From the NCBI RefSeq assembly GCF_014698235.1, contig NZ_JACJSP010000003.1:1-64000 (forward strand): a DNA stretch of 64,000 nucleotides, given 5' to 3'. The stretch is from Limnothrix sp. FACHB-406. Lineage in GTDB: Bacteria > Cyanobacteriota > Cyanobacteriia > CACIAM-69d. Shown piece after piece: positions 1 through 21,423 of the stretch. The stretch's first letter is position 1, and every line of letters starts with the position of its first letter. The notes under the pieces were generated by a model that did no database searches, had not been told where the DNA came from, and saw only the letters and a list, made by a program, of their open reading frames with translations. Position numbers and translations under genes: made by a program.

Positions 1-47
1 AGACGACTCATGAGCTGGGTGATACTTCGGGTAGGTCTAGCCTAAAA

Positions 48-100
48 CCGAATTTAGAGCTGCCAAGTCGGCTTTAGCTTCTCTTTATGAATTAGCTCTA
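48..100 (-). repeat. Solo IS-end or mini-inverted-repeat copy E1
   Basis: Read on the minus strand this stretch starts AGAGCTAATTCATAAAGAGA and ends GGCAGCTCTAAAT, so its ends are inverted AGAGCT/AGCTCT boxes. The same roughly 50-bp unit occurs at 6828-6888 and 18866-18918. The first box resembles the right end of the IS5-type remnant at 2908-3227 (AGAGCTGATTTATAAAGA). It directly precedes the truncated acetyltransferase. I infer a leftover end, or a small non-autonomous derivative, of that IS family. Confidence 0.6.
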
Positions 101-379
101 ATTGGCCCTCGGGTCAGCATTTTGACGGCAACCCACCCGATCGACCCGGATTTGCGGCGATCGGGTCAGGAATTTGGCAAGCCGATCTCGATCGGCAATA
201 ACGTTTGGATTGGCGGCGGCGCGATTATCAACCCCGGCGTAGCGATCGGTGACAACGTGGTGGTTGCTTCCGGTGCAGTGGTTACCAAAGACGTGCCCGA
301 TGGTTACATCGTGGGCGGTGTCCCCGCCAAAATCATTCGACATTGCACCGAAAATTCGCGTGAAAGTCGGATTTCATGA
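101..379 (+). pseudogene. 3' fragment of a maltose/galactoside-type O-acetyltransferase
   Basis: The frame is open from the edge of the IS-like repeat and encodes a left-handed beta-helix C terminus. It reads [13 protein letters not shown], then hexapeptide repeats such as [15 protein letters not shown] and [21 protein letters not shown], ending GGVPAKIIR. This is the acetyl-CoA-binding end of the Maa/LacA/NodL family, normally about 185 residues; only about 92 codons remain. The N-terminal half, including the catalytic His region, is missing. The break falls exactly at the repeat, so insertion or deletion there disrupted the gene. A TTG at 122 could start a short product, but function is unlikely. 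Confidence 0.75.
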
Positions 380-501
380 ATCAAAATTTCGGTTTTGGTG
401 CTCAATCGCGATCGCCCATTCTATCGGTTTTTTTCGTTGCTGTAATACCGAATCAACTTTTTCAGTTTGCTCTAACAGGTTTGTTCCACTGCTGGTACTT
501 A

Positions 502-951
502 TCAACTAGTTTCCTCTTCTTGAAATGGGTTTGCGTACCACTGTACGTACCACAGTTCTAAATCCTCATCATCTGGATAGTCCTCATACTTTGGAATATG
601 AATCTGGTAAGAATCTTGAAAAAACAAATTGAGACTGCTATCTTTCAAAAATTCATATCCTGTGAATACGCTTTGATTTAACGGATGAAATAGATTGCAC
701 CATTCTTTGAATCTTGGCTTGTAATCAATATCTTCATGATGTGGGCAGAAGGAGGCATCTGTAATCAGTTCTCCATGCTGCATGAATGACCAAGGTGGGT
801 CAATCCAAATGTAACCTTTCCTCTTTAACTGGCCTCTTTCTTCAAATCTGATTTTGATTGAATTACAAGCGATCGAGTGGGAGCAATTTTTCCCAACAAA
901 ATCTCTCAAAATTGGTTCATACTGCTGTCGGTCACTAACGGTGTAATCCAA
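502..951 (-). CDS. Hypothetical protein, 149 aa
   Basis: I do not recognise this protein. It is acidic at the C terminus and rich in aromatic residues (WIDPPWSFMQHGEL, LELWYVQWYANPF), with no signal peptide or membrane segment. Its DNA is clearly more A+T-rich and poorer in CGATCG motifs than the core genes, which fits recent acquisition. It lies next to the integron-cassette remnants and shares their strand, so it may be a cargo gene, but I see no clean attC site at its 3' end. Acidic, Trp-rich small proteins of this sort are often immunity or antitoxin proteins; that is only a suggestion. Confidence 0.6.
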   Translation of the reverse strand: MDYTVSDRQQYEPILRDFVGKNCSHSIACNSIKIRFEERGQLKRKGYIWIDPPWSFMQHGELITDASFCPHHEDIDYKPRFKEWCNLFHPLNQSVFTGYEFLKDSSLNLFFQDSYQIHIPKYEDYPDDEDLELWYVQWYANPFQEEETS

Positions 952-1360
952 TTTTCTGCCTCATTCCCAGCGCTACAGATATGCTAACAACCTTCCATCT
1001 TCGAGCTATTAACCTTGACGACTGACAAGGGATCTGCCAGACACGTCTATAACCTTACCGATCGCCCTGAAAACGCCACAGCCCCAGCCCAACAGCGCGA
1101 TCGCCCGTTTCGCCAGGTTCTCAGCCATCAAACCATTGAGGCTCATCAGACGATCGGCTCCAGCATTGCACTCGTACCGCTGGTCACGATCAACAACGCA
1201 TCACTGCCGAAGAGGCGATCGAACGCTGTGCATCATCCACCGCAAGATAACGACCCAAGCTCAGCGACCCGGCGCACGGGGCGTAACGATTGCACACTAG
1301 GTGTCATAGTTTGTAACTTCCTCACTTTGGCCTCCAACTCTCCGGCAAGAATCGCCCTAA
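952..1360. other. Intergenic stretch with a half attC site
   Basis: I see no convincing gene. A plus-strand open frame crosses it from 1015 but runs into the antisense of the next cassette gene and shows no family features. The only recognisable feature is the attC-like half site at 1248-1295. Confidence 0.5.
1248..1295 (-). repeat. Truncated attC site (left half only)
   Basis: About 48 bp nearly repeat the left half of the complete attC at 1690-1782: both carry TAACGACCCAAGCTCAGCG followed by ACCCGGC and an ACGATTGCA segment. The matching right half is absent and the core box reads GATAAC rather than RYYYAAC. It lies downstream of the cassette gene at 1361-1672, where that cassette's own attC is expected. 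Confidence 0.55.
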
Positions 1361-1672
1361 CTACGCGAAAACGTCTTCGCCGTAGGCTCTCGCAATCGCG
1401 GTGTCGAAACGGCTGGCAAACTCGCAGAACTCCTGCCCCCAACCACTGCTCACACTGACCTCCTGGATTGGGCCGGCGGGAAGAAACAAAAGCTCAATGT
1501 CGGAACGCTTGGGTATGTCGCCAGACTCAATGCGAGAAACAATGCTGTCAATCTCTCGAAGTGCTGCCGGTGCATCCTGCCATGAAGACCAATCAAAGTT
1601 ATTGTCGGGCCGCGAAAGGAACTGGCGCACCTCTCGGAGAACCTCAACCAACTGTTGGTGCTTGGAATTCAT
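1361..1672 (-). CDS. Integron cassette-encoded hypothetical protein, 103 aa
   Basis: This small acidic protein (start MNSKHQQLVEVL, end YGEDVFA) belongs to no family I can name. Its first half is predicted helical and carries WSSWQDAPAALREID; the middle has a short hydrophobic LLFLPAGPIQEV. It reads on the minus strand, like the other cassette genes. A complete attC lies 18 bp upstream, belonging to the preceding cassette, and an attC half site lies downstream. That makes it a cassette cargo gene. Such genes often encode stress or defence functions, but nothing in the residues shows which. Confidence 0.6.
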   Translation of the reverse strand: MNSKHQQLVEVLREVRQFLSRPDNNFDWSSWQDAPAALREIDSIVSRIESGDIPKRSDIELLFLPAGPIQEVSVSSGWGQEFCEFASRFDTAIARAYGEDVFA

Positions 1673-1689
1673 AGAGACGTGCGAATGAC

Positions 1690-1782
1690 ACCTAACGACC
1701 CAAGCTCAGCGACCCGGCTCGCGGGACGCCACGATTGCAACCGGAGCGCGATGGCCGGGGTCGCTGCAGCGCATGGTTAGGC
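1690..1782 (-). repeat. Integron attC site, 93 bp
   Basis: The outer boxes are ACCTAAC (RYYYAAC) at 1690-1696 and GTTAGGC (GTTRRRY) at 1776-1782. The inner arms CAGCGACCCGGC and GCCGGGGTCGCTG pair with one extra base on one arm, the unpaired base that marks the bottom strand in attC recombination. The stop codon of the upstream hydrolase lies inside the GTTAGGC box, as is usual for gene cassettes. This is the best attC in the window. Confidence 0.85.
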
Positions 1783-2511
1783 GGCATGGGTGATGACCTC
1801 ATCGGCTACCTCATTTAGTGTGGTCGCCACCTGCTCCGGCCGCTCCAGCATCGGATAGTGGCAGGTGTCCAGCGATACGACTCGGACATCCGCGCCCAGA
1901 TTGGCCGCCATGCGTTCCTGAAACTGCGGAGATAATGCTCCCCGGTCACGCAGGCACTGGATATAAGTGCAAGGTGCCGGAGGCCGTCCGTTCCAACGCA
2001 GCGGCTCAAGCACCAGTGACCTCGACTCCGCCGTGAACCGGGTGCACGCCGCCTGCACCCGCCGCGCATCCAGACCGTTGAGCATCGTCCGCTCCGCCAT
2101 CCGTGGTGACTGGGTAAATACCGGACCGCTGCGCCACAAAACAACGCGGCTGGCCACGCGCATCAGGAACGGAAACGAACCAGTAATCGAAACACCCGGT
2201 TGTGGCACCGGCCCGGCGATGATCACGAGGCCAGCCACTCGCTCTGCCAAACTCTCCGCCAGCGCCAGTACCACCGCCGCGCCCAACGAATGCCCGACGA
2301 GAATAAGCCTCGGTTGCTCCGGCAACTCTGCCCGGATGCTGCGGACACACTCAGCAAAACTCAATGAGCACAAGTCACCAGGTCGCTCCCCGTGCCCAGG
2401 CAAATCAACCGCCAACGCAGGCCGACGCAGGTGCGGCCTGACCTCATCCCATACCCACGATCCCGCATGTCCCCCATGCACCAGAACAAATATGACCTGC
2501 GATGAACTCAT
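1777..2511 (-). CDS. Alpha/beta hydrolase fold protein (integron cassette cargo)
   Basis: The protein has the alpha/beta hydrolase plan: an oxyanion-hole motif VLVHGGHAGSWVW near the N terminus, a nucleophile elbow GHSLGAAV with Ser, and a late His in DTCHYPMLERPEQVA. It resembles small-molecule esterases and the salicylate-esterase-like family; the substrate cannot be told. I chose the ATG at 2511 because it immediately precedes the conserved strand; an upstream start at 2553 would run into the attC. At 244 aa it is full length. Its stop overlaps attC 1690-1782 and its start follows attC 2541-2626, so it is a complete gene cassette. Confidence 0.85.
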   Translation of the reverse strand: MSSSQVIFVLVHGGHAGSWVWDEVRPHLRRPALAVDLPGHGERPGDLCSLSFAECVRSIRAELPEQPRLILVGHSLGAAVVLALAESLAERVAGLVIIAGPVPQPGVSITGSFPFLMRVASRVVLWRSGPVFTQSPRMAERTMLNGLDARRVQAACTRFTAESRSLVLEPLRWNGRPPAPCTYIQCLRDRGALSPQFQERMAANLGADVRVVSLDTCHYPMLERPEQVATTLNEVADEVITHAA

Positions 2512-2540
2512 GGTGTTGAAAGTGTGATGCGCGTAATGCC

Positions 2541-2626
2541 GCCTAACGACCAAGATAAGCGGCAGCAGATAACTTGCGCAACTCTACCAAAATCTCTCAA
2601 GTGTCCGCTTCATCGACTTGTTATGC
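2541..2626 (-). repeat. Integron attC site, 86 bp
   Basis: The left box GCCTAAC (2541-2547) matches RYYYAAC. The right box GTTATGC (2620-2626) is close to GTTRRRY with one departure. The inner arms AAGCGG (about 2556) and CCGCTT (about 2605) are complementary. It separates the acetyltransferase fragment from the hydrolase on the minus strand. Two sites in the same orientation at cassette spacing support an integron cassette array. Confidence 0.7.
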
Positions 2627-2646
2627 AGTTGCCCACGGAACCCATC

Positions 2647-2901
2647 TCAAAAACATCGATTACCATGCTGATCTACAATTTCTGCGCCTAGCCGATTATA
2701 AAAATGAAGCCCACGGGTATTCCGGGCATCAGCATTCCAAGCAAGATGGGTACAGTCATTTTCCTTAGCAATTTGAGCTAATTGAACCATTAATGCTGCT
2801 CCTGCACCCTGACTTCTCATCTTGTCATCCACATACAGATCATCAAGCCAAATACTTGGCTGACCGGCAAATGATGAGTACCTGAATCTGTCATTCAACA
2901 C
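2647..2901 (-). pseudogene. GNAT acetyltransferase, 5'-truncated cassette gene
   Basis: The remaining 84 residues are the C-terminal two thirds of a GCN5-related N-acetyltransferase. They include a beta4 strand IWLDDLYVDDKMRSQGAG with the acetyl-CoA pyrophosphate loop (RSQGAG) and the late LHFYNRLGAEI motif. Family members are about 150 residues, so roughly 60 N-terminal residues are gone. The break coincides with the left edge of the IS5-type remnant near 2905. An in-frame GTG at 2901 is probably not the native start. The gene's attC (2541-2626) survives downstream. Confidence 0.75.
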
Positions 2902-2907
2902 TTCTGA

Positions 2908-3204
2908 GAGAAGCTATCTCGGCTAGAGGTTATTTGGGTTGATCAGGGGTATTCCGGGAAAAAGTTTGCGGATGCTGTGAAGCGTGTGTGTGGCGAGAGT
3001 GTGCGAGTGGAGGTGATCAGCCGAATCGGTAAAGGGTTTGAGAGGTTGCCCAAGCGGTGGATTGTCGAGCGGACGTTTGGCTGGCTAAACCGATTTCGGC
3101 GATTGAGCAAGGACTATGAGTTGTATTCGGAGACGAGTGAAGGGATGATCTATGGCTGCTTAATGCATTTGATGGTGAAACGATTAGCGGGGATGGCTGA
3201 TTAA
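2908..3204 (+). pseudogene. IS5-family transposase C-terminal fragment
   Basis: The in-frame translation from 2908 includes VIWVDQGYSGKKFADAV (the second catalytic Asp region) and WIVERTFGWLNRFRRLSKDY, which carries the catalytic Glu of the DDE triad in the Y/V-ERTFGW motif typical of IS5-family transposases. The N-terminal two thirds, with the first Asp, are missing. It cannot act alone. Confidence 0.85.
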
Positions 3205-3227
3205 TATTGTCTTTATAAATCAGCTCT
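2908..3227 (+). mobile_element. IS5-family element, right-end remnant
   Basis: This stretch contains the last third of a DDE transposase followed by the IS right end, whose minus-strand reading is AGAGCTGATTTATAAAGACA. The left part of the IS is missing; the sequence passes directly into the truncated GNAT gene. On the right it joins a Uma2 reading frame that lacks its own 5' end. One deletion or insertion event therefore damaged two neighbours. The same end sequence recurs beside the CRISPR array at 18921. Confidence 0.8.
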
Positions 3228-3229
3228 TA

Positions 3230-3676
3230 CATGGCCACATTTGTAGCACCCTGATGATTTTATTGGGGAGTTATATTCGGAGCCAAAAACTGGGATTGCT
3301 CTTTGACCCCAGCACTGGCTTCAAGATGCAAAATGGCAACAGACGATCGCCCGATTTAGCCTTTTTTGCCAAAAACCAACTTCAAGGACTCACCACCCTA
3401 CCCACCGGTTTTCTCGAAGTCGCACCCGACTTAGCCGTTGAGGTATTATCGCCAGGAAACACCGTCGAAGAAATTGACGGGAAAATCACGGAATATTTTG
3501 CTAACGGTACAAGCTTAATGTGGGTGATTAATCCACAGCAGCGCTATATTTTGGTTTATCGATCGCCCCAAGAACCCGATCGCCTTCTTAAAACAGCCGA
3601 TCGCCTCGATGGTGAAGCGATCATTCCAGATTTCAGCCTCCCGATCGCTGAACTATTTCAAGAACTTGATTTTTAA
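3230..3676 (+). pseudogene. Uma2-family (DUF820) nuclease-fold protein, 5'-truncated
   Basis: Uma2 proteins have a PD-(D/E)XK fold, are about 190 residues and are very abundant in cyanobacteria. Here the frame opens at the IS junction (HGHICSTLMILLGSYI) and keeps the core: SPDLAFFAK, then PDLAVEVLSPGNTVEEIDGK with the Asp/Glu pair and Lys, and the tail WVINPQQRYILVYRSP. About 40 N-terminal residues are lost. An ATG at 3254 could start a 140-residue product that still holds the putative catalytic residues. I treat it as a damaged gene. Confidence 0.7.
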
Positions 3677-18950: not shown

Positions 18951-21423
18951 ATCCTCGCCCAGCCCGGGGGCCGGGCGCTGCCCGTCTGTCAGCAGGTAGC
19001 TCTCCAGCAACTCACGCACTGTTTCAATCCTCGCCCAGCCCGGGGGCCGGGCGCTGCGTACTAGAACCCGAAGAATGCAATACAAACGACGACGTTTCAA
19101 TCCTCGCCCAGCCCGGGGGCCGGGCGCTGCAATTCGTCGATAATGAAAATCACGGGTGGCTGATTCGAGTTTCAATCCTCGCCCAGCCCGGGGGCCGGGC
19201 GCTGCGAGGGCAATGACATCGCTTCGGTTGCGGCCGAGCTGTTTCAATCCTCGCCCAGCCCGGGGGCCGGGCGCTGCTATCCTGGCGAGCGGATGGGTGG
19301 ATCAAACCCTGGTGGTTTCAATCCTCGCCCAGCCCGGGGGCCGGGCGCTGCACGACGGCAAAATGCCTGAAATTCCGGGCTAATCCTGTTTCAATCCTCG
19401 CCCAGCCCGGGGGCCGGGCGCTGCGGTTGACCATCCAAGGCGCGATCGAGGGTATCAAGTTTCAATCCTCGCCCAGCCCGGGGGCCGGGCGCTGCGTTGA
19501 TCAGGATCCGGGAGTCAGAGGGGGACGTTGCCGGTTTCAATCCTCGCCCAGCCCGGGGGCCGGGCGCTGCTATCGCTCCACCTCTTGGCGATGCGACTCC
19601 TTGCCGAGTTTCAATCCTCGCCCAGCCCGGGGGCCGGGCGCTGCGATGGTTCGCGTCTACAGCCTTGAGGTCAGGAAGGAGTTTCAATCCTCGCCCAGCC
19701 CGGGGGCCGGGCGCTGCCCTGATTTCGACGCAGAAGCGCCATGCTGAACCAAGTTTCAATCCTCGCCCAGCCCGGGGGCCGGGCGCTGCGCCCTTTTACC
19801 GGCAGCGCCTACCGTACCGATTACCCCCCAGTTTCAATCCTCGCCCAGCCCGGGGGCCGGGCGCTGCACCGATCGCCCCGGTTAGTCCACATACCCCCCG
19901 TCTGTTGTTTCAATCCTCGCCCAGCCCGGGGGCCGGGCGCTGCCCTGGCCCAAGCGGCCCTGAGCTGGCCCAAGTAGCCCCGTTTCAATCCTCGCCCAGC
20001 ACGGGGGCCGGGCGCTGCCTATCAGCAACGCACCACAGCGATCACTCAATCCACCGTTTCAATCCTCGCCCAGCACGGGGGCCGGGCGCTGCCTCAAATC
20101 GGGTGAAATTGCCGCCACCCTGACTTGTTTCAATCCTCGCCCAGCCCGGGGGCCGGGCGCTGCAGTCTTGGGGCGATCGAGCAATGGGCCAAGCGTGACC
20201 CGCGTTTCAATCCTCGCCCAGCCCGGGGGCCGGGCGCTGCGGGGAGTAGATTGGGCGGCGGCGTTTTTTCGGCTGTTTCAATCCTCGCCCAGCCCGGGGG
20301 CCGGGCGCTGCTTGGGCTGCCGGTGCTGCAAACGGTGGTGACGGTGTTGTTTCAATCCTCGCCCAGCCCGGGGGCCGGGCGCTGCTCGGAAGCCAGGGAT
20401 AATTGGGTCGATCTCGAAGAGGTTTCAATCCTCGCCCAGTCCGGGGGCCGGGCGCTGCAATCAGCTCATCTTGCAAGTAGACCTTGACCGGGTGGTGGTT
20501 TCAATCCTCGCCCAGTCCGGGGGCCGGGCGCTGCGGAGCCGGGGCCGTGGCTTGCGGCATGGCGGCCGTTTCAATCCTCGCCCAGCCCGGGGGCCGGGCG
20601 CTGCAATTTGATTAAAACCGGCAATGCCACAGCCGTTTTGCAGTTTCAATCCTCGCCCAGCCCGGGGGCCGGGCGCTGCCCGATGAGACGAAAACCCCAG
20701 CGCGATCCGTCTGAACCGTTTCAATCCTCGCCCAGCCCGGGGGCCGGGCGCTGCCTAGAGGTCAAACAATCCGAGGCCGCAACCGGTGTCGGTTTCAATC
20801 CTCGCCCAGCCCGGGGGCCGGGCGCTGCATCAACAGATGATCTTGGATCACGACCACCACATGTTTCAATCCTCGCTCAGCCCGGGGGCCGGGCGCTGCC
20901 ACAGTCCGGGGTGACTCAGATTGCGGAGTGGCTGGGGTTTCAATCCTCGCCCAGCCCGGGGGCCGGACGCTGCTCACTCATGGTTTTCACCTCCAATCCA
21001 ATAACGTTGTGGCTGGGGTTTCAATCCTCGCCCAGCCCGGGGGCCGGGCGCTGCGCACCTTGTGGCGATCGACCGTCTTGGCCGACAGGGTGTTTCAATC
21101 CTCGCCCAGCCCGGGGGCCGGGCGCTGCGGCGGCCAACTGCCGCTGCCATGGCCCATACCCTCGAAAGTTTCAATCCTCGCCCAGCCCGGGGGCCGGGCG
21201 CTGCGAGTTAGATTCAAGCTCGTTGCACCACGAATATTGTTTCAATCCTCGCCCAGCCCGGGGGCCGGGCGCTGCCGCACCCTTGGGGTTGGAAATCCAT
21301 GCATAGGACGGGTTTCAATCCTCGCCCAGCCCGGGGGCCGGGCGCTGCAATATAAATCTGGCCCTAAAAAATCTAAATTAGCTGATGTTTCAATCCTCGC
21401 CCAGCCCGGGGGCCGGGCGCTGC
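18950..21423 (-). CRISPR. Type I-C CRISPR array, 33 full repeats and one truncated
   Basis: The 37-bp repeat reads, on the minus strand, GCAGCGCCCGGCCCCCGGGC followed by TGGGCGAGGATTGAAAC. It starts at 19021, 19094, 19169 and so on to 21387, with a 32-nt truncated copy at 18950-18981. I count 33 spacers of 33-44 nt, mostly 34-39. The ATTGAAAC tag of type I repeats shows that crRNA is read on the minus strand, from the cas side. The repeat folds into a GC-rich stem of about nine pairs. Variant repeats: 19982 and 20056 share one change, 20422 and 20498 share another, and 20863 and 20937 have private changes. Confidence 0.98.

Follow-up and report, generated by a model that had tools for sequence, protein, structure and literature searches.

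Our findings establish that a short region near the start of contig NZ_JACJSP010000003.1 of Limnothrix sp. FACHB-406 holds genuine integron cassettes, arranged as a CALIN, in a cyanobacterium. The window, that is the whole stretch of DNA that was analyzed, comprises the first 64,000 nucleotides of this contig, and coordinates given without a locus name refer to it. The cyanobacterial identity of the host is evident from PSII proteins in the same genome and from 62 HIP1 octamers against 2 expected. The cluster contains three cassettes, and we consider it probable that these are remnants of a now decayed chromosomal integron belonging to this cyanobacterial order, its attI side having been cut off by an IS5-family element. 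The first-pass annotation of this DNA had already recognized the CALIN, which stands, but it had missed the orphan attI sites of relatives as well as two features of the window, an xfp fragment at 1059-1240 and a further IS copy at 1-102.

The identification is carried by two complete attC sites. The attC of the GNAT cassette (2541-2626, minus strand, 86 bp) has the R'' box GCATAAC and the R' box GTTAGGC, while that of the hydrolase cassette (1690-1782, minus strand, 93 bp) has R'' GCCTAAC, which overlaps the hydrolase stop codon, and R' GTTAGGT. Both agree with the core-site consensus, R'' (RYYYAAC) and R' (GTTRRRY), GCATAAC with one mismatch. In each case the cassette top strand is the minus strand of the window, and DNA folds of the plus (bottom) strand give paired R boxes, an unpaired spacer and an L stem of imperfectly paired boxes with one bulged, extrahelical base, which bears out the paired inner arms and extrahelical base described earlier. 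A covariance search of the kind that the first-pass annotation had called for was carried out with R1, a model built from 23 attCs of 85-91 bp that lie near integrases exceeding the TIGR02249 cut-off in other cyanobacteria, with none from the window or its genome. The R1 training sequences, once aligned, retain the named attC structure in 90.7% of cells, compared with 23-43% for slid versions, and 16 of 20 pairs show change on both sides, a conservation count that is biased towards the structure because the training sites had been chosen by a pairing descriptor. With filters off over the 64-kb window, R1 returned both sites at the sizes and positions previously claimed, 2541-2626 at 70.5 bits (E 4.1e-14) and 1690-1782 at 27.5 bits (E 4.8e-4), each on the minus strand. 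The rest of the window reached at most 12.2 bits, or at most 10.3 bits once a weak opposite-strand match at the 86-bp site is set aside. The stronger site is a member of a common 86-bp cyanobacterial attC family; the 93-bp site has a modest score and represents another attC sequence type.

A skeptical view would hold that one or both sites are chance hairpins, or some other repeat such as a MITE or REP, rather than attCs. This view can draw on the pairing descriptor, which gave 1690-1782 a score of 59.5, where three mononucleotide shuffles of the window reached 44 at best, but placed 2541-2626 at 41, inside the shuffle range, so that the descriptor alone cannot tell the 86-bp site apart. It can also draw on the folding energy of that site, which is unexceptional (z 0.39, bottom-strand fold) and which we dropped as proof of attC identity on account of this weakness. 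Set against these points are the two R1 scores, obtained on the correct strand from an independent model with nearly all other matches in the window far below, and the placement of each site just after its ORF, with 758 bp between the sites, and we therefore regard the skeptical view as extremely improbable. Both complete attCs are predicted to remain recombinable and should still be usable by an integrase supplied in trans.

The three genes of the cluster are all encoded on the minus strand, in keeping with the single direction of the cargo noted at the outset. The first cassette (2647-2901) encodes a GNAT acetyltransferase that matches PF00583 from profile position 57, its N-terminus having been removed at the IS junction; a 122-bp remnant of it, 81% identical, lies on plasmid2 of Calothrix sp. 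NIES-4101, at a locus in which no attC was found. The second cassette (1696-2546) spans 851 bp between two G^TT crossover points and carries an intact alpha/beta hydrolase gene (ORF 1777-2511 from the ATG, 244 aa, PF12697, GHSLG motif), for which the best identities were 34% in the class sample and 36% on plasmids, none closer being found in the cyanobacteria or plasmids searched. The third cassette (1251-1695, 445 bp) contains ORF 1361-1672, which encodes a 103-aa orphan. No Pfam or NCBIfam family matched this protein, as had been claimed, and its sole relative found is in Pseudomonas mandelii (46% over residues 17-90), where no attC lies within 6 kb on either side. Its relatives were not found on plasmids, and viral contigs yielded none for it or for the hydrolase. 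Weak PDB matches of the 103-aa protein (E 0.004, Fe-hydrogenase) were put down to chance. The GC content of the three cassettes varies (0.45, 0.63, 0.55). Of the attC that belonged to the third cassette only the R'/L' half remains (1245-1294, minus strand), the R''/L'' half having been lost. Within the 64-kb window this half site has no R1 match; its stretch 1248-1294 is 89% identical over 47 bp to 1693-1739 (E 4e-11), which upholds the earlier reading of it as a real attC remnant.

The CALIN class (Cury et al. 2016, as cited in PMC9024848 and PMC8618304) comprises clusters of at least two attCs, with less than 4 kb between neighbors, that have no integron integrase gene. The two complete sites here lie 758 bp apart in one orientation, and the cluster has no such gene, with the qualification that the genome is a draft and the window starts at a contig end. 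The best TIGR02249 match in the host genome reaches 57 bits against a cut-off of 265 bits, none of the order's five further genomes has a match over the cut-off, and tblastn revealed no intI stump in the window. Because the search found no integron integrase in either the genome or its five order-mates, we assign the cluster to this class, as the first-pass annotation had done in describing integron cassettes without an integrase. It differs from a typical CALIN in being very small, in having a half attC at its end and IS pieces on its flanks, and in adjoining a fragment of xfp, the gene that marks orphan attI sites in relatives. With the chromosomal (sedentary) integrons of cyanobacteria that retain an intact intI (G134, G382 and G184) it shares the 86-bp attC family, and relatives of this genome have the same attI end as those integrons (..GTCTAATACATAGTTAGGC), whereas the locus described here has neither intI nor attI and only three cassettes. 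In kind, the cassettes match those of a complete integron, where intI and attI stand beside the first cassette, but the window contains neither element. An In0 is the reverse case, in which intI is present without attC.

Clusters of this kind had been noted as rarely described in cyanobacteria, but biological rarity is contradicted by the genomes sampled. Among 390 genomes of the class searched with R1 at E <= 1e-4, 275 contain attCs; integrases were found in 134 at E <= 1e-50 and in 124 over the TIGR02249 cut-off. Sites without an integrase occur in 145 genomes, 122 of which have at least two. Around 10 of the sampled genomes supplied some of the R1 training sites, so matches in those are expected, and the smallest genomes listed (G006, G030, G044 and G078; 1.7-1.9 Mb) contain no attC and act as a negative control within the sample. 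The literature moreover already reports integrons from Cyanobacteria (PMC2426708, PMC8618304, PMC9668308). The cluster is thus ordinary in kind and more common than had been claimed, leftovers of this type being common in cyanobacteria.

The surroundings of the cassettes record considerable disruption. On the 5' (attI) side the cluster is truncated by the last 323 bp of an IS5-family element (2907-3229, plus strand) of which an intact 940-bp copy lies at G000:C8:30210-31149, in agreement with the IS5 remnant reported previously in place of the integrase side. A second copy of this IS is represented by its 5' end (1-102, minus strand, 102 bp), which runs off the contig end. It is followed by a truncated maa gene (maltose/galactoside O-acetyltransferase-like; 98-415, plus strand), 83% identical to G002:C56:18776-19088, and then by the degenerate 3' end of xfp (phosphoketolase; 1059-1240, minus strand), which has a deletion of around 70 nt and is 83-87% identical to G002:C56 and G000:C12. 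We take this gene to be xfp from its ORF (MTATTPAPVTLPAFCEGIQYFGEPRPEFATLG...) rather than from a family search. A longer copy of maa is found in L102, maa adjoins the xfp locus in G002, and the order of maa followed by the xfp 3' end in the window is collinear with G002:C56. Beyond the IS remnant, 3227-3663 and the sequence from 3657 onwards match other contigs in relatives, which indicates that the cluster lies at a rearranged junction. Between maa and the xfp fragment, low-GC DNA (0.40) encodes a 149-aa ORF (502-951, minus strand) with no convincing Pfam match, possibly a further cassette gene that lost its attC. Further along, 19021-21423 holds a CRISPR array of DR9 type, with around 28 repeats listed by Rfam.

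In relatives, the neighborhood of xfp is more informative. An element of around 150 bp, whose copies are 76-88% identical and end in GGTCTAATANATAGTTRRRC, immediately follows xfp in G002 and G005; the same element occurs at G001:C53 and at G005:C7 and C12, there without an intact xfp. It terminates in GTTRRRY at the cassette start. A matching attI end is found around 150-400 nt upstream of intact cyanobacterial intI genes: the 20-bp end of the element is matched at 14 or more of 20 positions in 16 of 33 regions upstream of such genes, compared with 16 of about 1200 random 450-nt windows. We therefore interpret these elements as orphan attI sites without an integrase, located at L102 8925-9090 (G002:C56), L084 2255-2440 (G005:C11), L079 7770-7950 on the minus strand (G001:C53), L083 4090-4270 and L082 1480-1660; four of the five match the 20-bp end at 18-19 of 20 positions. 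Some are joined to the xfp 3' end or to a piece of xfp, and this link with a housekeeping gene is the more surprising aspect of the finding. One or more cassette genes and an attC follow the orphan attI at all loci except G002, giving the order attI, gene(s), attC at G001:C53 and at G005:C7, C11 and C12:114-124 kb. A Pc-like promoter seen by eye in the orphan attI (TTGACA-18-TTATCC) was negative in a consensus scan and is not claimed. Integrase genes survive as N-terminal stumps at two loci of G005. One (L085 674-806, G005:C12, minus strand; 37 aa, 62% identity, E 3e-9) immediately adjoins the same attI-like upstream element, with genes and an attC coming next; the other is at L086 3595-3690 (minus strand). 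Taken together, the intI stumps, orphan attI sites and cassettes indicate that integrons once existed in this order and that their attI sites and cassettes outlasted the integrase.

The R1 model also located further attCs in the order, at G000:C24 and C25, at G001:C53, at six sites in G005 and as a decayed pair at G000:C2 that is orthologous to a pair at G001:C31. The orthologous pairs form a second, older CALIN common to two species (L077 4527-6264, G000:C2; L080 3248-5144, G001:C31), which contains a 160-aa ORF and a zinc-type dehydrogenase gene and whose attCs are visibly decaying in this genome. Single cassettes with an attC and defence-type genes occur at L075 5131-7764, L079 5142-7739 and L084 2585-4939. 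The genes encode a subtilase resembling IetS, a restriction-modification type N6 methylase of 865 aa, and a methylase together with a restriction enzyme. At L103 12380-15391 (G000:C12), an Abi_C gene and a gene for an HNH endonuclease are interleaved with tandem xfp 3' pieces, and the former gene ends in an attC-like R'' (ACCTAAC) severed by the next xfp piece. An empty-site comparison for G001:C53 (60 bp at G000:C2 against 3.7 kb in G001) gave junctions that are not G^TT-precise, and integrase-mediated insertion is accordingly not demonstrated there.

Decay of a chromosomal integron could have produced the present arrangement in the following way. The old platform would have resembled that of the relatives, with attI fused to the xfp 3' end and intI reduced to stumps, as at the two loci of the one genome. 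Insertion of the IS5-family element, with an adjoining deletion or rearrangement, would then have severed the cassettes from the attI side and placed them beside unrelated genes. The intact hydrolase cassette could be excised by an integrase acting in trans, and the cluster would be static without one. The derivation from an integron with attI at xfp is one that we infer, since the window has no attI (the best match, beside the xfp fragment, is 11 of 20, as in random sequence), the homology to the xfp locus ends shortly after the xfp stop, and the fragment sits at the 3' end of the cluster rather than the 5' end. This last point counts against decay, in that a tandem or rearranged locus must be assumed, although the tandem xfp 3' copies at G000:C12 make such a position plausible. 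The contig end, which puts the left neighborhood outside view, and the modest score and different type of the 93-bp attC weigh in the same direction.

Two other origins have to be considered alongside integron decay. An integrase acting in trans, plasmid-borne or since lost, may have inserted the cassettes one by one at a secondary site near the xfp fragment, so that they never formed part of an integron with attI at xfp. Cury et al. (as cited in PMC8618304) propose such off-target insertion as one way in which CALINs form, and the junction after the half site, GTT followed by the non-consensus ATCT with host-like homology beginning a few bases on, would suit it. The 5' junction, however, was destroyed by the IS, so that insertion cannot be demonstrated, no empty site was found for the cluster, and the copies of the xfp 3' end and attI beside blocks of cassette and attC at four other loci of the order favor a common origin; this makes one-by-one insertion rather unlikely. 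Recent horizontal import of a ready-made cluster from a proteobacterium would fit the unequal GC of the cassettes, the Pseudomonas relative of the 103-aa protein and the remoteness of the hydrolase from anything in the cyanobacteria or plasmids searched. Yet integrons of any source usually have cassettes of differing GC, the Pseudomonas gene lacks a nearby attC, the 86-bp attC belongs to the common cyanobacterial family and the GNAT remnant lies on a Calothrix plasmid, all of which render import very unlikely.

The decay of a chromosomal integron, which we favor, would provide a concrete route to a CALIN, in which intI is reduced to stumps, attI is left on a housekeeping gene and the cassettes are severed by an IS. 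A more far-reaching proposal, which we consider unlikely, is that after loss of the integrase in this order attI persists fused to the xfp end and that copies of it occupy several loci, where each accompanies a single cassette whose gene often serves in anti-phage defence. If this were true, the integron would survive as integrase-free, fixed units of attI, cassette and attC that are fed or reshuffled only by integrases from other cells. In summary, an independent model confirms that this cyanobacterium, a member of an order without a working integrase, carries integron cassettes. Several cyanobacterial cassettes carry restriction-modification or other defence genes, and attCs are about twice as widespread as integrases across the 390 genomes, which highlights cyanobacteria as a large and little-studied cassette pool.
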